From: Chloroflexi bacterium HGW-Chloroflexi-8
GTDB lineage: Bacteria; Chloroflexota; Anaerolineae; Anaerolineales; Anaerolineaceae
Assembly (NCBI GenBank): GCA_002841995.1
Contig: PHBS01000016.1
Location: 1-39,187 of the forward strand
Reading direction: 5' to 3'
DNA: 39,187 bases
Shown: positions 15,529 through 30,736 of the stretch, one piece after another
Layout: every line of letters begins with the position of its first letter
How positions within the stretch are numbered: position 1 is the stretch's first letter
Notes under the pieces: generated by a model
What the model saw: only the letters and a program-made list of their open reading frames with translations
Databases searched by the model: none
What the model was told of the DNA's origin: nothing
Made by a program: the position numbers and the translations under genes

Positions 15529-17361
15529 ATGCGTTCAAAATTATTAGGTCTAGCGGGTCTACTGATCGTTGTTAGTATGATCCTTGGTGCTTGCCAACCG
15601 GCAGCGGTTCCAACACCAGAAACCATTATTCAAACTGTGATTGTTGAAGGAACCCCACAGGTTCAAATCATCACAGCAACACCAGCTCCTGTGGTTGCAC
15701 CAGAGGAAATGAAGGCCATTACCATCAATATGGGTCCTGGCGATATTCCGACCATTGATCCTTCACTTGGAACCGATACTTCCTCAATCCAGGTCGCGAC
15801 TGAAACGTTTGTGGGTCTTACCCGTCAGGACGAAGTGACCAACCTGGTTGAACCTGGTATGGCAACTGAATGGTCATCAGTCGTAAATGATGATGGTACT
15901 GAGACCATTACATTCAAACTGCGCAATGACATTTCCTGGGTAAACTACAATGGTACAACGGTTGAGCAGGTCATGAATTGTGACGGCGCGCCTCGTATTG
16001 TTAATGCCAATGATTTCTACTATGGCATCATCCGCACCCTGCAACCAGCCACTGCTTCCCAATATGCGTATGTGTTGGGTATGTCTATGGCAGGAGCCGG
16101 CGACTTTAACAGTGGTGTAACCGATGATCCAACAACTGTTGGAGCAAAAGTTATTGATGATTTCACCATTGCATTAACTTTCGTTGAACAGGCTGCCTAC
16201 AACCCGGCGATTGCTGGTATGTGGATTGCTTATGCTGAACCGTCATGGCTCATTGATGGCGACGATTGTACTGAAGCACGTGGCGAGAAATGGACCGAGA
16301 CTGGTTTCTTCCAGGGCTATGGCCCTTACACCCTCAAAGAGTGGGTACATGACTCAACTTTGACTCTCATCAAGAATCCCTTCTGGCCTGGTACCACTAA
16401 TATTCCACAACCGAAAATCGAAGAAATTACCTGGACCATGTTAGATGCATCACCCGCCATGGCAGAATACGAAGCTGGAAACCTGGACACAGTTGCTGTT
16501 CCATTAGCTGACATGGACCGTGTCAAAGCAGACCCAGTATTATCTGCTGAATACGTTGTAGCCCCTAACTTCTGCACATACTATTATGGTTTCAACACAT
16601 CCGCCCCAGTCGTCGATGATGTTCGCGTTCGCCGCGCCTTGTCACAGGCCATTGATCGCCAATCCTTGATTGACAACGTTCTCAAGGGTGGTCAGGAACC
16701 TGCTCAATGGTTCTCCCGCCCAGGTTTAGCTGGAGCTCCAACCATGGCAGATCATCCCGATTTAGGTGTGAAATATGATCTTGAAGCTGCTAAAGCCGAA
16801 TTACAATCCTATCTGGATGAAAAGGGCAAAACTGCTGCTGAACTTGACATCACCCTTATGTTCAACACCTCCGAAGGTCACCGCAAGATTGCTGAAGCAA
16901 TTCAGCAGATGTGGAAAGATGGCTTAGGGTTAGATGTCAAACTGGTCAATCAGGAATGGGCAGTTTACCTTGATACCATCAAGGGCGCTGCGACTCCTCA
17001 GATTTACCGCTTAGGCTGGTGCCTGGACTACCCGGATGCCAACAACTTCATCCGCGAAAACTTTGGACCCAATGGCTCTGCCAATCCATTCACCAATGGC
17101 AAACCATCTGGTGGTGTCTTCTACAATAACGAAACTTTCTTCGCTGGATTGTTGGAAGCCGCCCGCGAACAGGATCCTGTAAAACGTGTTGATCTATACG
17201 CAGCACTCGAGCAGACCCTGGTTTATGATGACGCAGTCATTGCGCCAATCTACTGGTACACTCGCAATACCCTCACCAAACCATATCTTACTCGCACATT
17301 CTCTACTGGTGGTCACGAACACATTGAGAAGTGGGATATCGATATGGCTGCTAAGCCGTAG
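15529..17361 (+). CDS. Family 5 solute-binding lipoprotein of the first importer
   Basis: A 610-residue extracellular binding protein. The signal ends in lipobox LGAC (Cys22), followed by a Pro/Thr-rich linker. Family-5 motifs occur in the normal order: an N-lobe with FKLRNDISW and N-G-T-T, the GYGPYTLKEW turn near the middle, IEEITWTMLDASPA then YEAGNLDT, the VRVRRALSQAIDRQ helix, and a C-terminal APIYWYTRN. It delivers a ligand, most likely oligopeptides, to the permeases at 17452 and 18534. AGGAGGAG lies 7 nt upstream of the ATG. Many codons end in C (TTC, AAC, GAC), unlike the flanking permease genes, which suggests high expression. A strong hairpin follows the gene. Confidence 0.92.
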   Translation: MRSKLLGLAGLLIVVSMILGACQPAAVPTPETIIQTVIVEGTPQVQIITATPAPVVAPEEMKAITINMGPGDIPTIDPSLGTDTSSIQVATETFVGLTRQDEVTNLVEPGMATEWSSVVNDDGTETITFKLRNDISWVNYNGTTVEQVMNCDGAPRIVNANDFYYGIIRTLQPATASQYAYVLGMSMAGAGDFNSGVTDDPTTVGAKVIDDFTIALTFVEQAAYNPAIAGMWIAYAEPSWLIDGDDCTEARGEKWTETGFFQGYGPYTLKEWVHDSTLTLIKNPFWPGTTNIPQPKIEEITWTMLDASPAMAEYEAGNLDTVAVPLADMDRVKADPVLSAEYVVAPNFCTYYYGFNTSAPVVDDVRVRRALSQAIDRQSLIDNVLKGGQEPAQWFSRPGLAGAPTMADHPDLGVKYDLEAAKAELQSYLDEKGKTAAELDITLMFNTSEGHRKIAEAIQQMWKDGLGLDVKLVNQEWAVYLDTIKGAATPQIYRLGWCLDYPDANNFIRENFGPNGSANPFTNGKPSGGVFYNNETFFAGLLEAAREQDPVKRVDLYAALEQTLVYDDAVIAPIYWYTRNTLTKPYLTRTFSTGGHEHIEKWDIDMAAKP

Positions 17362-19740: not shown

Positions 19741-21696
19741 TTGAAGTTTCAGAAATTCCAACCTGGGTTGATTTTTATGATCCTTGTTATTCTTATAATG
19801 ACGGCTTGTCAACCGCAGATTGCTATTGAAAATACCCCCAGTCCTATCGTTGCCACAGAAATTATTAAAACCACTACGCCTACTTTAGAACCTCCCCGCA
19901 GTATGGTAATTTGTTTGGGTGACGAACCGTTGACGCTTTATCCTTATGGAAGTGACAGCCGTGCCATGTGGAGTGTTTTGGAAGCCATTTATGATGGCCC
20001 GATTGATACTGTAAATTTTGAGTCACAACCGGTAATTTTAAAAGATCTGCCTACATTGGAAAATGGCGGAGCGGTGACCCAGGCTGTAACCGTATCTGCA
20101 GGAGACCCGGTCGTGGATGTGAATGGAGATCTTGTACTTCTGGTGAAAGATACCATTGTTTTACCTGTAGGTTGCCAAGATGATACCTGCGCGATTAAAT
20201 GGGATGGGACCACCGAATTACAAATGACACAATTAAGCCTGAGCTTTACAATGTTGGACGGTCTATTGTGGTCAGATGGTCAGCCTTTGACTATGGCTGA
20301 CTCTGTTTATTCTTTCCACCTGGCAGCCGACCCGAGTACGCCAGTCAATCGTTATCATGTGGAACGAACAGCCGATTATAGCAGTACGAGTGACACAACC
20401 TTAACCTGGGTGGGTGTACCTGGTTTTTATCCACAACATTTTGGGGATTTATTCTGGATCCCACTTCCCCAACATGCCTGGCAGAGCAAAACTGCTGCCG
20501 AATTATTGACAGATCCGGCAGCAACCCAAACCCCGATTGGATGGGGTCCTTATCAGATCAAAGAATGGGTATCAGGCAGCCATATTGAATTAATCCCCAA
20601 CCCAAATTATTTTCGTGCAAGTGAAAATCTGCCGGTATTTGATACGCTTGTGTATCAATTCTTGGGAACAACCGCCGATAGCAATTTAAAGGCGCTTGAA
20701 ATTGGTGAATGTGACTTGATTGATGCAACCGTGTCATTAGATGAACAATTGGTGGATGTGGTTGAGAAGAGCAATCTGGGTGAGATTAAAGCATATTTTG
20801 GCCAGGGTCCAGAGTGGGAACACCTGGATTTTGGTATTGTACCAGCCAGTTATGATGATGGAATTCAAATGAATAGTGATCGCGCGGATTGGTTTGGTGA
20901 TCTTCGGATGCGTCAGGCATTTGCGTATTGTATCGATAGGCAGGCCATTGCAGACCGTTATTTTGTCAACCGATCAGAAGTGCCAACCAGTTTTTATCCA
21001 CCTTCTCATCCTCTTTTTGATGGGTCCCTTAGTGCAATTGCATATGATGTAGAAAAAGGAACTGCACTTTTAGAAGAGATGGGGTGGATGGATGAAGATC
21101 AAAATCCATCAACCCCTCGAATTGCCCGCAATGTGGCCAATGTTGTGGATGGAACACCTTTGTCCATTAATTATTTCACAACGCAATCTGACTTACGGGT
21201 TCTGGTTTCGAACGATATTAAGAATTCGGTTGCTGTTTGTGGAATTGAATTGAATGTTTTGAATATTTTTCCATCCGAATTATATGCTTCCGGACCCGAG
21301 GGAGTGTTGTTTGGACGTAATTTTGATCTGGCTCAATTTACCTGGCAGGCGGGCCGTGATACCCCGTGTTATCTGTACACTACAAAGCAAATCCCGAATG
21401 AAGCAAATATGTGGATTGGAACCAATATAACCGGTTATCAAAACCCGGATTATGATCAGGCCTGTGGACTTGCTCAACAAAAGCAGCCAGTAGATCCAGC
21501 CTTATATATGGAAGCTAATCAAAAGATTCAACAAATATTCGCTGAAGACATGCCGGTATTACCGCTTTATTACCAGATTAAAATTGCTGCCAGCCGTCCG
21601 GATTTTTGCGGACTTGATGCACTTGATGTCAGTTCCCGAAGCGTTTTAAGAGCCTTAGAAACTTTCAATTATGGCGAAAATTGTAAAAATCCATAA
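19741..21696 (+). CDS. Family 5 solute-binding lipoprotein, orphan
   Basis: A 651-residue binding protein starting at TTG 19741, with AGGAGG at 19730-19735 five bases upstream. The signal ends in lipobox MTAC (Cys23). Family-5 motifs are in canonical order: LWSDGQPLTMADSVYSF in the N-lobe, GWGPYQIKEW, a divergent GECDLIDATV, then LRMRQAFAYCIDRQ and a C-terminal MPVLPLYYQ. An insertion of about 60 residues before the LWSDG motif includes GCQDDTC, a possible disulfide pair. It has its own promoter and no dedicated permeases, so it probably feeds one of the flanking importers with a different ligand. Its codon use is less C-ending than that of the other two SBP genes, suggesting lower expression. 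Confidence 0.88.
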   Translation: MKFQKFQPGLIFMILVILIMTACQPQIAIENTPSPIVATEIIKTTTPTLEPPRSMVICLGDEPLTLYPYGSDSRAMWSVLEAIYDGPIDTVNFESQPVILKDLPTLENGGAVTQAVTVSAGDPVVDVNGDLVLLVKDTIVLPVGCQDDTCAIKWDGTTELQMTQLSLSFTMLDGLLWSDGQPLTMADSVYSFHLAADPSTPVNRYHVERTADYSSTSDTTLTWVGVPGFYPQHFGDLFWIPLPQHAWQSKTAAELLTDPAATQTPIGWGPYQIKEWVSGSHIELIPNPNYFRASENLPVFDTLVYQFLGTTADSNLKALEIGECDLIDATVSLDEQLVDVVEKSNLGEIKAYFGQGPEWEHLDFGIVPASYDDGIQMNSDRADWFGDLRMRQAFAYCIDRQAIADRYFVNRSEVPTSFYPPSHPLFDGSLSAIAYDVEKGTALLEEMGWMDEDQNPSTPRIARNVANVVDGTPLSINYFTTQSDLRVLVSNDIKNSVAVCGIELNVLNIFPSELYASGPEGVLFGRNFDLAQFTWQAGRDTPCYLYTTKQIPNEANMWIGTNITGYQNPDYDQACGLAQQKQPVDPALYMEANQKIQQIFAEDMPVLPLYYQIKIAASRPDFCGLDALDVSSRSVLRALETFNYGENCKNP

Positions 21697-21976: not shown

Positions 21977-24535
21977 ATGAAAAAAAATAAATTCATGTTG
22001 TTTATGGGTTTGGTCATTGTAGCCAGTATGGTTTTGGCTGCCTGCCAACCCGTGGCTGCTCCCACGGAAGTTGTAGTTGAACCTACAGCTGAAACACCAG
22101 TGGAAGCACCAACCGCAGCACCGACGGAAGTCGTTGCTCCGACTGTAGAACCAACCCCAGAAGTGGTTCGCACCACTCGTAAAGGTGGTTGGTTAGATGA
22201 AATCGTTTTCTCTGTTGTTGATAGCGCATCTGTAATTACACAATTACAGGCTGGTGCCATTGATATCTATGCAGATAGCCTTTCATCTAAAGATTTAACT
22301 GCCATTAAAGATTCCGGTTTGAGCTATTCAACTGCATCAGGTCTCTATTATGACATGATGTTTAACCCGGCAGTATTTTCTGATGGTCGATTAAATCCAT
22401 TCAATAACCGCAAAATCCGCGAAGCAATGAACTGGATTGTTGATCGCGATTACATCAACCAGGAAGTCTTCGCTGGCGGTGGTTTAGCCAAATTCTTTGC
22501 GATTACAACTCAATTCCCGGATTACGCAGATCTGGCAGATGTTGCCCGAAAGCTTGAATCATACTACGCTTATGATTTAGAAAAAGGCCGTGCCGCTGTA
22601 GCAACCGAAATGGAAGCTATGGGCGCAACCCTGGTTGACGGAAAATGGAATTTCAATGGCGCACCTGTGACCTTGGTTTTCATTATTCGTAGTGACTCTG
22701 ATGGTACCCGTATTCCGATGGGCGATTATTTTGCCTCACAATTGGAAGCAATTGGTTTCACAGTTGATCGCCAATACAAGACCGGTGGAGAAGCCTCCCC
22801 AATCTGGATTGGCTCCGAACCAACTGATGGCCTCTGGAACGTTTACACTGCAGCATGGTCTGCCACAGTTCTCGACCGCGACCAGAGCAACATCTTCCAG
22901 GAAATGTATCTGGATTCTTCAGCTCAGGGTATTCCGTTATTCTTACAGAATGTTTCTGACCCTGAATTCAAAGATTTAGGTGATAAATTAGCCCAGGCTA
23001 CATTTAAGACCGTTGAAGAACGCCATGACATGATGGCTCGTGCCCTTGAGCTTTCACTTCAGGACTCTCTCCAGGTCTTCCTTATTGATGGTAAAAGCTA
23101 TATTCCTTACCAGAACAATGTAATTGCCACTGCTGACTTAGCTGCTGGTGTTCAGGGTGCACAAATTTGGCCATTCACACTTCGTTTTAAAGACGAAGAG
23201 GGTGGTACATTGAATTGGGCAACCCAGGAATTGTTTGGTGATCCCTACAACCCGATCGCTGGCTCCAACTGGGCATTCGATCAGGGTGCCATTCGTGCCA
23301 CCCAAAGTGGTGACTATATGTACGATCCATACACTGGCTTGTTATGGCCACTTCGTTTGGAAAGTGCTGATGTCGTTGTCCAGGAAGGTCTACCTGTTGG
23401 AAAGACACTGGATTGGGTAAATTTGGAATTCGCTCCTGAAATTAAGGTTCCTGCTGATGCATGGGCTGATTGGGATGCTGCAACCCAAACATTTATCCCC
23501 GCTGGTGAAGGTGTGACAGCTTTACGCAAGACTACCGTTTACTATCCTGCTGATTTGTTTGAAACAGTCAAATGGCACAATGGTTCCAATCTCTCCATGG
23601 CCGATATTGTCATGGGTATGATTATGACCTTCGATCGTGCCAAGGAAGCAAGCGCAGTTTATGACGAACAGGCTGTTCCTGGTTTCGAACCTTTCATGGA
23701 AAACTTCAAAGGTATGCAGATCGTTTCCACAGATCCTCTAACTATTGATTACTACACCAATCTCTATTCATTAGACGCCGAACTTAATATCCCAATTTTC
23801 TTCCCAACCTACACATTTGGTGAGGGTTCCTGGGATATGATTGCTATCAGCAATTTAGCTGAGGCTGGTGGCGAATTGGCTTACTCTATCGACAAAGCCG
23901 GTACTGCAGAAATTGAACAGACCAGCTGGGTCGGTGGACCAAGCCTTGAGATTTTAGCCAAATACTTGGATCAGGCAATTGCTGAGTCCGTTATTCCGTA
24001 TGCCCCCACCCTTGGTCAATACCTGACTGCAGAAGAAGCAGTTGCTCGTTATGACGCCACTAAGGCCTGGTATGCAGAACACGGTCACTTCATGATCGGT
24101 ACTGGCCCCTATTTCATTGATAAAGCATTCTTAACTGAGAAGAGTTTGACACTCAAGAATTTTGCAGACTATCCTGATCTTGCTGATCGTTGGGCTTCTT
24201 ATGGTGAACCCAAACTGGCTACCGTCGAACTTGATGGCCCAGGACAGGTTAAGATTGGCGACGAAGCAACATTTGATGTTTATATCACTTTCAAAGATAT
24301 GCCATATCCAACCGCTGAGATCAAACAGGTTAAATTCTTGCTCTACAATGCCAAGAACGAAATCGTTTCTGTCAGTGAAGCTGTTGCCGTAGAAGATGGT
24401 CTGTACAGCATCGTATTAGATGCAGCTACAACCGCTTTACTTGAGGCTGGTTCCAACAAGCTAGAAGTTGCTGTTGTTCCGCTGACCGTAAGTCAACCAA
24501 CCTTCCAGGCAATTGAGTTCGTAACAGCCCCATAA
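21977..24535 (+). CDS. Circularly permuted family 5 solute-binding lipoprotein with Ig-like tail
   Basis: An 852-residue exported lipoprotein (lipobox LAAC, Cys23; Pro/Thr/Glu linker to about 66). The family-5 motifs are in rotated order. First come segments normally in the second half: LDEIVFSVVDSASVI and LQAGAIDI (73-97), FNNRKIREAMNWIVDRD (142-158) and FLIDGKSYIPYQ (368-379). Then come segments normally at the N-terminus: GTLNWATQELFGDPYNPI (410-427), VKWHNGSNLSMADIV (531-545) and GTGPYFI (708-714). Residues about 746-852 form an Ig-like beta domain. Each half occurs once, so this is a rotation and not a duplication. AGGAGGAG precedes the ATG. Highly C-ending codons suggest abundance. It feeds the permeases at 24625 and 25748. 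Ligand unknown; oligosaccharides are plausible. Confidence 0.85.
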   Translation: MKKNKFMLFMGLVIVASMVLAACQPVAAPTEVVVEPTAETPVEAPTAAPTEVVAPTVEPTPEVVRTTRKGGWLDEIVFSVVDSASVITQLQAGAIDIYADSLSSKDLTAIKDSGLSYSTASGLYYDMMFNPAVFSDGRLNPFNNRKIREAMNWIVDRDYINQEVFAGGGLAKFFAITTQFPDYADLADVARKLESYYAYDLEKGRAAVATEMEAMGATLVDGKWNFNGAPVTLVFIIRSDSDGTRIPMGDYFASQLEAIGFTVDRQYKTGGEASPIWIGSEPTDGLWNVYTAAWSATVLDRDQSNIFQEMYLDSSAQGIPLFLQNVSDPEFKDLGDKLAQATFKTVEERHDMMARALELSLQDSLQVFLIDGKSYIPYQNNVIATADLAAGVQGAQIWPFTLRFKDEEGGTLNWATQELFGDPYNPIAGSNWAFDQGAIRATQSGDYMYDPYTGLLWPLRLESADVVVQEGLPVGKTLDWVNLEFAPEIKVPADAWADWDAATQTFIPAGEGVTALRKTTVYYPADLFETVKWHNGSNLSMADIVMGMIMTFDRAKEASAVYDEQAVPGFEPFMENFKGMQIVSTDPLTIDYYTNLYSLDAELNIPIFFPTYTFGEGSWDMIAISNLAEAGGELAYSIDKAGTAEIEQTSWVGGPSLEILAKYLDQAIAESVIPYAPTLGQYLTAEEAVARYDATKAWYAEHGHFMIGTGPYFIDKAFLTEKSLTLKNFADYPDLADRWASYGEPKLATVELDGPGQVKIGDEATFDVYITFKDMPYPTAEIKQVKFLLYNAKNEIVSVSEAVAVEDGLYSIVLDAATTALLEAGSNKLEVAVVPLTVSQPTFQAIEFVTAP

Positions 24536-24624: not shown

Positions 24625-25746
24625 ATGACTCCAGAACCCAAGTCCGGTAGTCTCGGTGAAAAAAAGAAAGCTACGAATTCGACTTTTCTCCGTGTGGCAC
24701 GGTTTATGTCATTTCGTGTCATTATGCTCTTTATTACGATTGTAATTGGTGTCTATGCAACCATTATGATCGCCAATATGGGTGGTTATGTCGACGATAT
24801 CATGCGCAATAACATAAAAGAAACAGTTAATTTGCGCGTGGCAGCGATGACGGCCAATACTCAGACTTCAACCGAGACTCGTAAGCAGATGGCTGAAGAA
24901 ATGATCGCTTTGGAAGAAAAGCGGTTGGGTCTGGATACACCCTTTATGGTACGTTCATTCCGTTATTTATCGAATGCATTACAGCTAAACCTGGGTCGGG
25001 CTTTGCATATGGTCAGCGATAATGGTTCGCGCCAAGTCAAGAACATTATCCTTGAACGCTTGCCTGCAACCTTGTTATTAATGGGAACATCGCAATTATT
25101 CTTATTTTTCTTTAGTGTCTTTATCGCACTTGCCTTATCTCGTTCCTATGGAAGTTTTTGGGATAAGCTGGTGATTACGCTTTCTCCTACTTCAGCTGCG
25201 CCGCCATGGTTTTATGGTATTTTCTTTATTTTGATTTTTGCAGCAGTATTTAAAGTTCTACCATTTGGGGGGATGGTGGTATCACCGCCACCTGATAATA
25301 CCTGGGATTATATATTAAGCGTTTTAAAACATTTAATATTACCCGCAGGGTCCTTAATCATCAGTTCATTATTTATTAGTATTTATAACTGGCGCACGTT
25401 CTTTTTAATTTATTCAAGCGAGGATTATGTCGATATGGCGAAAGCTAAAGGGCTTCCATCCCGAGATATTGAACGACGCTATATTTTACGGCCAACTTTA
25501 CCAACAATTATTACAAACTTTGCGTTGCTGGTGATCGGACTTTGGACAGGCGCTACGATTACGGAGACTGTATTTCTCTGGCCAGGTCTTGGGAGAACCC
25601 TTTTCCGCGCTATTGGCTTTTATGACACACCCGTCATCGTGGGTTCCACAATTATTTACGCTTATTTACTGGCATTCACCGTGTTCTTCCTTGATTTTAT
25701 TTATGCATTGGTTGACCCACGTGTAAAAATTGGGGGTGGAAAATAA
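24625..25746 (+). CDS. ABC transporter permease, OppB-like
   Basis: A 373-residue permease. A charged cytoplasmic head (about residues 1-30, KPKS/KKK-rich) precedes the first helix at about 32-52. A long extracytoplasmic loop (about 53-145) contains a helical EEMIALEEKRLGLDTP, as in OppB. Four or five further helices follow, with the EAA loop VDMAKAKGLPSRDIERRY and the C-terminal ALVDPRVKIG. The start has GAGGG about 6 nt upstream, just after the hairpin. The next permease begins 1 nt after its stop. It is less similar to the peptide-type OppB at 17452 than expected for a duplicate, so the two systems are old relatives. Confidence 0.88.
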   Translation: MTPEPKSGSLGEKKKATNSTFLRVARFMSFRVIMLFITIVIGVYATIMIANMGGYVDDIMRNNIKETVNLRVAAMTANTQTSTETRKQMAEEMIALEEKRLGLDTPFMVRSFRYLSNALQLNLGRALHMVSDNGSRQVKNIILERLPATLLLMGTSQLFLFFFSVFIALALSRSYGSFWDKLVITLSPTSAAPPWFYGIFFILIFAAVFKVLPFGGMVVSPPPDNTWDYILSVLKHLILPAGSLIISSLFISIYNWRTFFLIYSSEDYVDMAKAKGLPSRDIERRYILRPTLPTIITNFALLVIGLWTGATITETVFLWPGLGRTLFRAIGFYDTPVIVGSTIIYAYLLAFTVFFLDFIYALVDPRVKIGGGK

Positions 25747-25747
25747 T

Positions 25748-27091
25748 ATGAACAAAATCAAGAGTTTTTTCACAGCATTAAAGGGATATCCATCTGCAAT
25801 TTTTGGATTAATCATTGTGATTGCATTAGTGGTACTTTCAATTTATGCGCTCATAAAAATCCCATATGCCGAAGCAATTCGGTTATGGCGTGGCGGCGAA
25901 GAAGTCTGGTACCAAAATCCTAAAAATGTACCACCAGCCTGGTTTAATTATTTCACCAAAGAGAAGCTCCCGGAATCATTTGCAGTAAAAGTTGGCGATG
26001 ATGGTTTGCAAAAGGTTGTCACACCCGGTGAGCAAGGGACATCGACGATTGAATTCACATATGATTTTGAGTTTGATTTTGATCAATTTCCACAGGAAAT
26101 GTTCCTTTATTTGAAATCAAATTACACAGAAAAAAATCCATTTATATCGGTTTATTTGATCACCCCGGATGAAAGGGAAATTCGAATTACCGACACCGGA
26201 ATCAGTCGCCAACAAACATACCGTTTTTCACAGGACGAAAAATTGGTTCGTCGACTTAAGGGGCAAGACGTAATGAAGGGCTTGTTTGTCTTACCAGCAA
26301 CTGAACCCATTCAAATCGTAAAAGGCACATATACCTTACTTATTCAAGGATTGGTTTTTGAAGAAGGGTCAGACATTGATGTTGAATTTGTTATGCATGG
26401 TTCAACCTATGGTATCGCTGGAACAGACCACGCCCGTCGTGATTTAGCCGTTCCGTTGTTATGGGGTGCACCGATTGCAATGGCATTCGGTCTACTGGCA
26501 GCAGTGGGAACTTCCGTGTTATCCATGTCGATTGCTGCTATTGGTGCCTGGTATGGCGGATGGTTGGATGAGTTAATCCAGCGCATTACCGAAATTAACC
26601 TGGTATTACCCTTTTTGGCAATCTTGATTATGGTGGGTACTTTTTATTCGCGTAGTATATGGACGATTCTTGGTGTTACTATACTGCTAAGTATTTTCAC
26701 AGGATCAATAAAAACCTACCGGGCTATTTTCTTACAGGTTAAAGAATCAACTTATATAGAAGCAGCCAGAGCGTATGGGGCAAATGACTTTCGTATTGTC
26801 TTTAGATACCTGATTCCCAGGATGATCCCACTTCTAATTCCAACTTTGGTTTCTTCAGTCCCTTCATATGTTTTCCTGGAAGCATCCCTGGCAGTTTTGG
26901 GACTTGGTGATCCTGTATTACCCACATGGGGTAAGATTATCAATGATGCAGAGGTCAATGGTGCTTTATACAAAGGATATTATTACTGGATTTTGGAACC
27001 TGCAGTGTTGCTCATGATTACAGGGCTGGGGTTTGCCATGTTAGGTTTTGCTCTTGACCGCATCTTTAATCCAAGATTGAGAGGAATTTAA
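25748..27091 (+). CDS. OppC-like ABC permease with large extracytoplasmic insertion
   Basis: A 447-residue permease, about 100 residues longer than its counterpart at 18534. After one N-terminal helix (about 15-37), roughly 180 extra residues (about 40-220) separate it from the OppC motif, here GTDHARRDL (225-233), where GRD is usual. The inserted part is rich in beta-strand and acidic residues (IEFTYDFEFDFD, PFISVYLITPDE, KGTYTLLIQGL) and looks like a beta-sandwich outside the membrane. The channel core is normal, with EAA loop IEAARAYGANDFRIVFRYLIPR and the FNPRLRGI end. The ATG at 25748 is used; an in-frame ATG at 25730 lies inside the previous gene. The added domain may dock the permuted binding protein. 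Confidence 0.87.
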   Translation: MNKIKSFFTALKGYPSAIFGLIIVIALVVLSIYALIKIPYAEAIRLWRGGEEVWYQNPKNVPPAWFNYFTKEKLPESFAVKVGDDGLQKVVTPGEQGTSTIEFTYDFEFDFDQFPQEMFLYLKSNYTEKNPFISVYLITPDEREIRITDTGISRQQTYRFSQDEKLVRRLKGQDVMKGLFVLPATEPIQIVKGTYTLLIQGLVFEEGSDIDVEFVMHGSTYGIAGTDHARRDLAVPLLWGAPIAMAFGLLAAVGTSVLSMSIAAIGAWYGGWLDELIQRITEINLVLPFLAILIMVGTFYSRSIWTILGVTILLSIFTGSIKTYRAIFLQVKESTYIEAARAYGANDFRIVFRYLIPRMIPLLIPTLVSSVPSYVFLEASLAVLGLGDPVLPTWGKIINDAEVNGALYKGYYYWILEPAVLLMITGLGFAMLGFALDRIFNPRLRGI

Positions 27092-27094
27092 CTC

Positions 27095-28051
27095 ATGACA
27101 GAAAAAACCCTCTTGCAAGTCGATCAATTAAAGCTGCATTTCAAAACTCAACACGGCATTGTACAGGCTGTGGATGGTGTTGATTTCCAATTAGAGTCTA
27201 ACCAGGCTGTCGTCGTAGTTGGTGAATCTGGTTGTGGAAAAAGCTCGCTGGCAAAAGCCATTTTAAGACTTTTACCCCGTAATGTTCAGGAATATTCCGG
27301 GAAAGTATATTTGAACGGCCAGGAAATTATGGGTTTGTCGGAAGAGGAATTCCGTCAGCAAATCCGTTGGGTGAAAATGTCGCTCGTTCCTCAAGCAGCT
27401 ATGAACTCACTAAACCCGGTGTTGCGAGTTGGAGATCAGGTTGCAGAACCTCTGATGGTCCACTTTGGCGCCAAAAAAGAGGATGCTCTGGAACAGGCTA
27501 AAGTTATGTTTCAGCATGTAGGAGTTCCGGTTGATTTTATTAACCGCTATGCATTTGAACTTAGTGGTGGGATGCGTCAGCGCGTTGCTTTGGCAATGTC
27601 ATTGGCCACTTCACCTGACTTGATTATTCTGGATGAACCAACTTCAGCCCTGGATGTTTTAACTCAAGCAAATATCTTTAACCTGCTTAAAAATATTAAA
27701 CAACACACTGCAGCCAGTTTTATCTTAATCACACATGATATTGCAACCTCGAGTGAATTAGCAGATAAGGTTGCAGTAATGTATGCTGGACAGATTGTTG
27801 AGGTTAGTGATTCGACTACCTTTTTCAGTGAACCCCACCATCCTTATTCTGCAAAGCTGATGGCCAGTGTTCCTAAATTGCGCGCCAATTCCGAACCGGA
27901 TTTTATTACCGGTCAACCTCCCAGTTTAATTAATCCGCCTACGGGATGCCGGTTTGCTGCGCGTTGTTCAAAAAGATTCTCAAAATGCGTTGAGGAACCA
28001 CCCGTTACTCAGATTGGAAATAATCTGGTTAAATGCTGGTTGTATGAGTAA
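27095..28051 (+). CDS. ABC transporter ATPase, OppD-like
   Basis: A 318-residue ATPase beginning 3 nt after the permease. Walker A is GESGCGKSS, the Q-loop SLVPQAAMNSLNPV, the signature LSGGMRQRV, Walker B LIILDEPTSALD, and the switch ITHDIA. The C-terminal oligopeptide-type extension has cysteines in CRFAARCSKRFSKC and KCW, a possible 4Fe-4S ligand set. PQAAMNSLNP replaces the usual FQDPxxSLNP in the Q-loop, a feature I have seen in OppD-like ATPases of sugar-type systems, which fits a non-peptide substrate only weakly. It pairs with the next ATPase. Confidence 0.9.
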   Translation: MTEKTLLQVDQLKLHFKTQHGIVQAVDGVDFQLESNQAVVVVGESGCGKSSLAKAILRLLPRNVQEYSGKVYLNGQEIMGLSEEEFRQQIRWVKMSLVPQAAMNSLNPVLRVGDQVAEPLMVHFGAKKEDALEQAKVMFQHVGVPVDFINRYAFELSGGMRQRVALAMSLATSPDLIILDEPTSALDVLTQANIFNLLKNIKQHTAASFILITHDIATSSELADKVAVMYAGQIVEVSDSTTFFSEPHHPYSAKLMASVPKLRANSEPDFITGQPPSLINPPTGCRFAARCSKRFSKCVEEPPVTQIGNNLVKCWLYE

Positions 28052-28063
28052 AAGGGGTGCAAA

Positions 28064-29098
28064 ATGATTAACCAAGAAAATGTAAATGCGATGACTGAAG
28101 AAAACCCGAACAAATTTGGAAAGAGAAATGTTCTGCTTTCTGTAAAAGATCTTCGTGTATGGTTTGAACTTCGTAAATTTGGTTTTGGCCATGCAGGTTA
28201 TGTTCATGCAGTGGATGGTGTAAATTTTGAACTCAAAGATGGTGATTCCATCGCAATTGTTGGGGAAAGTGGTTGTGGAAAATCCAGCTTGATGAAAACT
28301 ATCCTGGCATTGTATAAACCGACAAAAGGTGAAATTACTTTTGGCGATTATACGTTAAACGACTTAAAAGGTAAGAATCTGAAGGATTATCGTTCTAAGG
28401 TAGGTTTTGTTCAACAAGATCCTTACGGAGCTTTACCTCCATTTATGAGTGTCCAAACAATTCTAGAAGAACCGCTTATCATCAACGGCGTCAAAGATAA
28501 GGCTGAGCGGATAGAAAGAATTCAAAAAGTGTTGGAAGAAGTCAAGATGACCCCAACCATTGATTTCTTACCGAAATTCCCCCATATGCTGAGCGGTGGA
28601 CAACAACAACGTATTGTAATTGCCCGCGCGATGATTTTAAATCCGAAGCTTTTAGTGGCAGATGAACCTGTATCCATGCTGGATGCATCAGTTCGTGTCG
28701 AAATACTCAGGCTTCTGCGTGGATTGCAAGAAAAATATAACCTGGCAGTCATTTATGTTACACATGATCTTTCCACTGTTCGGTATTTTTCGGAGCGTAT
28801 TTTTGTAATGTATGCAGGACAGGTTATCGAAAAATCGCAAGTGGATTTATTAGTGGATAACCCTTTGCATCCGTATACTTTTGCGCTTCTGGAGGCGACC
28901 TCGGACCCAGATGCCCATAACGCAACTGTCATGAAAGAGATCCCACCTGGTGAGCCGCCAAGTCTGGTCAAACCACCAGAAGGCTGTCGATTCCATCCAC
29001 GTTGCCCCAAAATCATTAAAGGCGTTTGCGATGTGAAAGAACCACCAGAATTTCAACCAGAACCAAATCACTACGTTTCTTGTTGGCTGTACGAATGA
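28064..29098 (+). CDS. ABC transporter ATPase, OppF-like
   Basis: A 344-residue ATPase. Walker A is GESGCGKSS, the Q-loop GFVQQDPYGALPP, the signature LSGGQQQRIVIARAM, Walker B LLVADEPVSMLD, and the switch VTHDLS. The C-terminal cysteine motif CRFHPRCPKIIKGVC with SCW completes the oligopeptide-type extension. The start at 28064 has AAAGGGG about 8 nt upstream; a second in-frame ATG at 28091 is possible. Its stop overlaps the start of a small membrane protein (ATGA), which should be counted as part of this operon. Confidence 0.9.
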   Translation: MINQENVNAMTEENPNKFGKRNVLLSVKDLRVWFELRKFGFGHAGYVHAVDGVNFELKDGDSIAIVGESGCGKSSLMKTILALYKPTKGEITFGDYTLNDLKGKNLKDYRSKVGFVQQDPYGALPPFMSVQTILEEPLIINGVKDKAERIERIQKVLEEVKMTPTIDFLPKFPHMLSGGQQQRIVIARAMILNPKLLVADEPVSMLDASVRVEILRLLRGLQEKYNLAVIYVTHDLSTVRYFSERIFVMYAGQVIEKSQVDLLVDNPLHPYTFALLEATSDPDAHNATVMKEIPPGEPPSLVKPPEGCRFHPRCPKIIKGVCDVKEPPEFQPEPNHYVSCWLYE

Positions 29099-30661: not shown

Positions 30662-30736
30662 TGGGGCATGGTGCAATCGGCAGCACACCAGACTTTGGAT
30701 CTGTGGATCTTGGTTCGATTCCGAGTGCCCCAGCCA
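30662..30736 (+). tRNA. tRNA-Gln (anticodon TTG), CCA encoded
   Basis: The acceptor arms TGGGGCA and TGCCCCA pair perfectly. The D-arm is GTGC/GCAC, the anticodon loop CTTTGGA gives anticodon TTG, and the T-arm is CTTGG-TTCGATT-CCGAG. Discriminator G73 and an encoded CCA follow. The anticodon stem CCAGA/TCTGT has one C-T mismatch at its outer pair (27-43). The gene stands alone between the response regulator and glmU. Confidence 0.93.

Follow-up and report, generated by a model that had tools for sequence, protein, structure and literature searches.

The gene at positions 21977..24535 of the window, the whole stretch of 39,187 nucleotides that was analysed (contig PHBS01000016.1 of Chloroflexi bacterium HGW-Chloroflexi-8), very probably codes for the binding component of an Opp-type importer, a lipid-tethered family-5 solute-binding protein that would have kept the fold of its family while its chain was opened at a new place. 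The 852-residue product carries the segments of the family in a rotated order, and we refer to it and its relatives as family A. The features that bear on this reading, all on the plus strand, are as follows.

15529..17361, plus strand: control, family-5 protein in canonical order (one PF00496 stretch, 2-367)
19741..21696, plus strand: control, family-5 protein in canonical order (one PF00496 stretch, 18-358)
21977..24535, plus strand: apparently circularly permuted family-5 solute-binding protein, 852 aa, family A (open reading frame with an ATG start)
21977..22045, plus strand: signal peptide ending in the lipobox LAAC, predicted lipidated Cys23 (read in the translation)
22046..22171, plus strand: Pro/Thr/Val/Glu-rich tether, residues 24-65 (read in the translation)
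22172..23188, plus strand: residues 66-404, placed first; this is the second part of canonical members, with the rest of domain I, domain III and the return strand (PF00496 148-355; 7fi3 324-613 with profile A1)
23189..24196, plus strand: residues 405-740, placed second; this is the canonical first part, with the N-terminal strand, domain II and the GTGPY strand (PF00496 25-140, below cut-off; 7fi3 63-309 with profile A1)
24197..24532, plus strand: residues 741-852, extra C-terminal domain, perhaps Ig-like (weak FlgD_ig match)
24625..25746, plus strand: OppB-type permease of the same operon (PF00528)
25730..27091, plus strand: OppC-type permease, 453 aa (PF00528)
27095..28051, plus strand: OppD-type ATPase (ABC_tran and oligo_HPY)
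28064..29098, plus strand: OppF-type ATPase (ABC_tran and oligo_HPY)

In the translation, LDEIVF (from residue 73), LQAGAIDI and NNRKIREAMNWIVDRD (to 158) come before DPYNPI (from 421), VKWHNGSNLSMADIV and GTGPYFI (to about 714), and the WHNG..AD and GTGPY motifs are in place. The score of PF00496 (SBP_bac_5), 99.2 bits against a curated cut-off of 32.4, makes the protein a member of the family; the match falls into two stretches, the better of which lays residues 73-303 on positions 148-355 of the 368-position profile, and positions 148-355 precede positions 25-140, an order that rotation restores. Scanned alone, residues 67-404 matched positions 148-355 with 88.7 bits, and residues 405-740 matched positions 25-140 weakly, with 17.9 bits and an E value of 0.0019, which is under the cut-off. 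The best-scoring solved sequence relative over both parts was PDB 7fi3, a 732-residue dipeptide/oligopeptide transport binding protein, presumably of Thermococcus kodakarensis, which has the canonical order, whereas family A has the second part first: phmmer placed query residues 464-733 on chain 39-307 and residues 137-297 on chain 400-569 (E 5.9e-21), and the family-A profile A1 (41 rows) matched 7fi3 in two swapped pieces, of 99.5 bits (63-309, the first part) and 140.9 bits (324-613). The rotated motif order claimed in a sequence-only reading of this DNA is thus borne out by the motifs and by the swapped Pfam and 7fi3 matches. Every canonical segment was found a single time, in agreement with that reading's point that each half is present once and duplication does not explain the order, and the separate profile searches that it proposed did not show residues 66-400 matching the N-lobe and 405-745 the C-lobe in the usual order.

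When residues 405-740 were moved before residues 66-404, PF00496 matched in one stretch, 25-355, with 110.5 bits compared with the native 99.2; the rotated protein likewise aligned to 7fi3 in one stretch (39-569; 83.6 bits, vs 77.4 unrotated), and profile A3, made from five rotated members, aligned 7fi3 61-609 in one stretch with an E value of 1.5e-71. Rotation points were also scanned in steps of 15 and scored with a profile built from twelve proteins in canonical order. The two other family-5 proteins of the window, each with a single forward PF00496 stretch and so in the normal order that had been ascribed to them, scored 206.3 bits (15529; best rotation 207.3, 11 residues away) and 210.0 bits (19741; best 210.3, 7 residues away, with starts to 135 nearly as good) from their native starts. 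The window protein scored 67.2 bits when opened elsewhere, compared with 53.7 in its native order, a modest gain, with the best starts at 591-636. These starts show only that the GTGPY strand belongs ahead of LDEIVF; they fail to locate the opening of the chain because the canonical profile misses the beginning of the first part, which is divergent in family A, as its Pfam score when scanned alone indicates, and for the same reason the order within the remainder of that part depends on 7fi3, one solved relative. The rotated profile split family-A proteins into swapped pieces in 21 of 201 genomes, two pieces in each and three in G016. Profile, solved-relative, rotation and comparative results, all drawn from sequence, support the view that the protein is a circular permutation of the family.

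The new ends of the window protein correspond to mature E. coli OppA at about residues 202-219; for OppA we take the signal peptide to be 26 residues long and the domain limits to be 1-44, 169-270 and 487-517 (domain I), 45-168 (domain II) and 271-486 (domain III). With these limits the new ends lie inside domain I, between the post-GTGPY strand and the LDEIVF strand. Each half therefore holds pieces of domain I, and the halves are not the two lobes; the circular permutation proposed in the sequence-only reading stands, but its equation of the halves with an N-lobe and a C-lobe does not. The old N and C termini appear to be joined near residue 405 (residues 400-410). Both termini of oligopeptide-binding proteins other than YejA lie close together beside strands of domain I, according to the text available of PMC10924461, and closing them should therefore be easy.

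The extra domain of residues 741-852, which matched FlgD_ig with 15.5 bits (E 0.017, below its 27-bit cut-off), comes after the same point where the new N terminus begins. It is absent from the members of genus g203 that were examined, whose proteins end near profile position 735-740, and it is therefore not needed for the permuted order. The lipobox is an established motif, and a simple pattern found it in 103 of 133 family-A open reading frames, some of the 30 misses having a Cys in a like place; the same pattern found no lipobox-like motif in L043, L045 and L046 (f30), which are distant members of the family. The C-terminal ends of L043 and L045 consist of a hydrophobic stretch followed by lysines, so that in these proteins the anchor may sit at the C terminus, at the same opening. 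In the proteins of L016, L024 and L041 the canonical first part is interrupted near window residue 508 by an insert, ranging in length from about 20 to more than 100 residues; that of L016 is Ala/Glu-rich and perhaps a coiled coil.

The rotated order is conserved across the phylum. Profile A1, searched at an E value of 1e-10, matched in 44 of 400 Chloroflexota genomes, a lower bound since two candidates were scored per genome. The survey of Chloroflexota homologues that had been suggested found near-full-length relatives in the same order, with one collinear alignment covering 689 or more of the 846 profile positions, in 38 of the 400, own genome included; several of these 38 had supplied rows to the profile, and one match, G444:C37, has an inner TGA. 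The remaining six genomes gave partial matches resembling ordinary family-5 proteins. A scan of named genome contigs yielded 361 relatives, of which the best 80 were taken, and 140 distinct open reading frames matched in the collected loci: 133 were full length in the window order, three were re-permuted, and four were incomplete, cut by contig ends or locus borders. Window-order relatives occur in many genomes at 40-80% identity, with six more at 23-26%; that of Anaerolinea thermolimosa (NZ_DF967965) is 71% identical over residues 1-852. Three loci with Spirochaetaceae, Clostridia or Symbiobacterium titles (L109, L113 and L126) fell within a supported set with Chloroflexota-titled rows, and a plasmid collection gave no match at 1e-5. 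Among 201 Chloroflexota genomes, with at most six candidates scored in each, the search turned up no sister in canonical order whose first part matches, and hence no representative of the ancestor; in the 16 genomes with a match but no family-A match, ordinary family-5 proteins matched from profile position 267 or later. Neighbouring family-A genes on the same strand were seen in L074 (three), L164:136-5700 (two) and L165:6404-11232 (two); those of L165, and two of the three in L074, lie directly next to each other.

The operon holds two permeases and two ATPases bearing oligo_HPY, the set of an Opp/Dpp-type importer. In its OppC, the part before the GTDxxxRD motif is longer by 120-130 residues (within about 25877-26419) than in two control OppCs, the motif lying at 231 rather than at 100 and 109; these two controls, one beside the canonical protein at 15529 and one beside a protein of family B (described below), lack the extra stretch. 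No Pfam family matched it above cut-off and no PDB match covered it, the five PDB permease matches starting at residue 224 or later; it probably lies outside the membrane, on the extracytoplasmic side. The 80 named loci hold 82 family-A genes, 76 of them with at least 2700 bases downstream, and among these 76 an OppB lies within 700 bases downstream in 73 and an OppC with the extra stretch follows in 72, the four without it being two genes of L074 and those of L093 and L127. Downstream of the operon, at window positions 30662-30736, lies a tRNA-Gln gene.

A different rotation is found in a second family, B, of which the same genome holds a member on contig C25 (L171:2662-4389). This 575-residue family-5 protein has profile positions 64-365 before 2-53, and on 3tpa its residues 76-444 align to 129-503 and its residues 473-567 to 27-125. 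Rotated, it matched Pfam positions 2-365 in one stretch, with 280.3 bits compared with 272.8, and scored 334.5 bits on the canonical profile compared with 273.1 in its native order. The opening aligns to about residues 122-130 of OppA, within domain II by the limits assumed above. Family B was found in 26 of 201 Chloroflexota genomes, own genome included, as a single collinear match reaching residue 570 or beyond, one of which (G209) starts only at 118. Its profile was built from 52 proteins, and of 71 open reading frames scored 50 had the B order, most of these being seeds of the profile; 13 were canonical, with the two parts swapped against the B profile, as expected, and the others comprised L211 (a B protein with extra short matches), L268 (different; see below) and six partial matches. 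At L295:1015-3354 (minus strand), a family-1-like binding protein, judged by eye, runs in frame into a B-order protein, a fusion or an artefact.

Each of the two families appears to have been re-opened at one shared loop of domain III, at OppA 358/359 in what we call the A' order and at 356/357 in the C order. The family-A protein of L163:5858-8125 (contig C19 of G444) has profile positions 222-736 first and 59-219 last, and rotating it raised its Pfam score from 63.4 to 72.4 bits; on the canonical profile it scored 50.7 bits after rotation, compared with 22.6 before. The A' order occurs at five loci in four genomes, namely L163, L175/L226 (open reading frame at L226:5726-8116), L177/L227 (L227:215-2551), L233 and L234, the last incomplete at its start; a search with the A' order gave any match in 7 of 84 genomes. 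In a 26-row tree, whose outgroup rows did not fall together, the A' proteins are not one clade: forcing them into one costs 298 log-likelihood units (p-AU 7e-64), and the supported branches force at least three order changes among A' relatives, on which two trees agree. In separate segment trees for L163, L175 and L177, the long segment forces three changes and the short segment only one. Both segments of L175 and of L177 keep the same window-order neighbours; those of L163 have the same neighbours by path, its short segment being most identical (45%) to that of the A' protein L175. That the segments of all three keep their neighbours speaks against gene mixing as the cause of A'. A' may also represent one gain with later returns.

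The C order is that of L268:1345-3075 (G014), in which the signal peptide is followed by 3tpa 360-508, 34-123 and 133-347. Its rotation scan reached 317.2 bits at best, compared with 244.1. The protein is 69% identical to the B-order L272 and groups with 13 B proteins (98/96), though a clade of B proteins without it is not rejected (p-AU 0.12). L268 is a complete gene, at a locus that also has an ABC ATPase gene. An open reading frame on contig C222 of the window's own genome (L136:1390-3003) was considered as a fourth permutation and set aside: its start fits the C order and unrelated sequence follows, so that the C order is represented by one complete gene, L268. By eye, the L136 reading frame continues into rhodanese-like and helicase-like sequence, probably marking a chimeric contig or a broken gene.

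Several other explanations of the window protein have to be weighed. The genome is fragmented into 256 contigs, one of which is the window in full, and C222 of the same genome looks chimeric by eye, which could suggest that the assembly misordered two gene pieces when joining them; the relatives of the same order in many genomes, A. thermolimosa among them, refute this, and an artefact of that kind has practically no chance of being the explanation. It could also be supposed that only the half comprising residues 66-404 is homologous to family 5 and that the other is an unrelated partner domain, a proposal to which the weak Pfam match of residues 405-740 lends some colour. Those residues, however, matched 7fi3 63-309 with 99.5 bits when profile A1 was used, the rotated profile spans both parts in one alignment, and the WHNG..AD and GTGPY motifs are present, leaving this proposal extremely improbable.

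A fusion of two separate proteins or of two family-5 copies, each folding alone or swapping halves in a dimer, could also be supposed: tandem family-A genes do exist, at L074, L164 and L165, and the same segment order would be seen in a domain-swapped dimer. Against a fusion or duplication of this kind, each canonical segment occurs once, so that one chain amounts to one complete set, and neither part would hold a whole bilobed domain; the adjacency of the canonical termini favours closure within one chain. We therefore regard a fusion or duplication as very unlikely and a chain opened at a new place as the better account of the gene.

On this account of a re-opened chain, the match to 7fi3 suggests a bilobed, three-domain cluster C fold, and the permuted protein would fold as an ordinary Venus flytrap, in which the new opening would bring the lipid tether and the additional C-terminal domain together at a single site in domain I. 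The lipid anchor might then sit on a different face of the flytrap, as the sequence-only reading proposed. The tethered flytrap would close on its ligand, peptides or similar oligomers, and the loaded protein would dock on OppB and the OppC with the extra stretch, import being powered by OppD and OppF. Permutations generally arise through tandem duplication, in-frame fusion and trimming, and family A likely took such a route, from a tandem duplication through an in-frame fusion to loss of the outer parts. The tandem family-A copies are only suggestive in this respect, and no fused intermediate was seen at the loci that hold them. Family B could have arisen by the same route, with its opening in domain II, before the later re-opening in both families at one loop of domain III. 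A broader proposal, about which we are evenly divided, is that the family-5 fold in Chloroflexota behaves as a ring with an evolving opening: two ancient openings, in domain I (family A) and domain II (family B), would each have been followed by a re-opening at one and the same loop of domain III (OppA about 356-359), and the order would have changed three or more times within one small family-A clade, through a recurrent local mechanism and possibly under selection on the tether site.

DppA, HbpA and OppA, the familiar members of cluster C (family 5, PF00496), are likewise lipoproteins with an Opp operon and belong to the same family by profile score, but the order of family A is not collinear with the PF00496 profile. 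For families B and C, 3tpa and 1dpp are strong matches, 3tpa in rotated order. The nearest precedent for the permutation itself is TpMglB-2 (Tp0684), which the available text of PMC4990184 describes as a naturally circularly permuted, membrane-tethered, glucose-binding protein of cluster B; its authors proposed the names Type Ic or Cluster Bc, and considered it possible that this topology is suited to, or was favoured by, anchoring. Both it and the window protein, the latter as judged from its segment order, are permuted, tethered binding proteins of ABC systems, but TpMglB-2, as far as that text goes, has a sugar-binding cluster B fold in one permuted order, whereas the proteins described here belong to cluster C, with two primary openings and re-opening at a third site. 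The five PDB matches of the window protein all carry family-5-type names, and no cluster B (MglB-like) family or chain was among its Pfam or PDB matches at E values up to 1. Our search of one open-access library, judged from its listings, found no report of a permuted peptide-type cluster C binding protein; natural permutation is thus known for a cluster B sugar binder (PMC4990184), and the cluster C case is apparently unreported in that library.

The start and end of the chain seem to have changed repeatedly in the evolution of these relatives. Order-dependent annotation can hide such proteins, whose native matches come in pieces. The series of re-opened proteins offers a test of whether chain order and tether position affect flytrap closing and docking, and the re-opening at the same loop in two separate families is material for understanding how permutations arise. 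If the ring reading is true, a recurrent local mechanism would be implied, for instance the resolution of tandem concatemers at a preferred loop, and the Chloroflexota would offer one receptor in natural forms that between them are tethered at all three domains.
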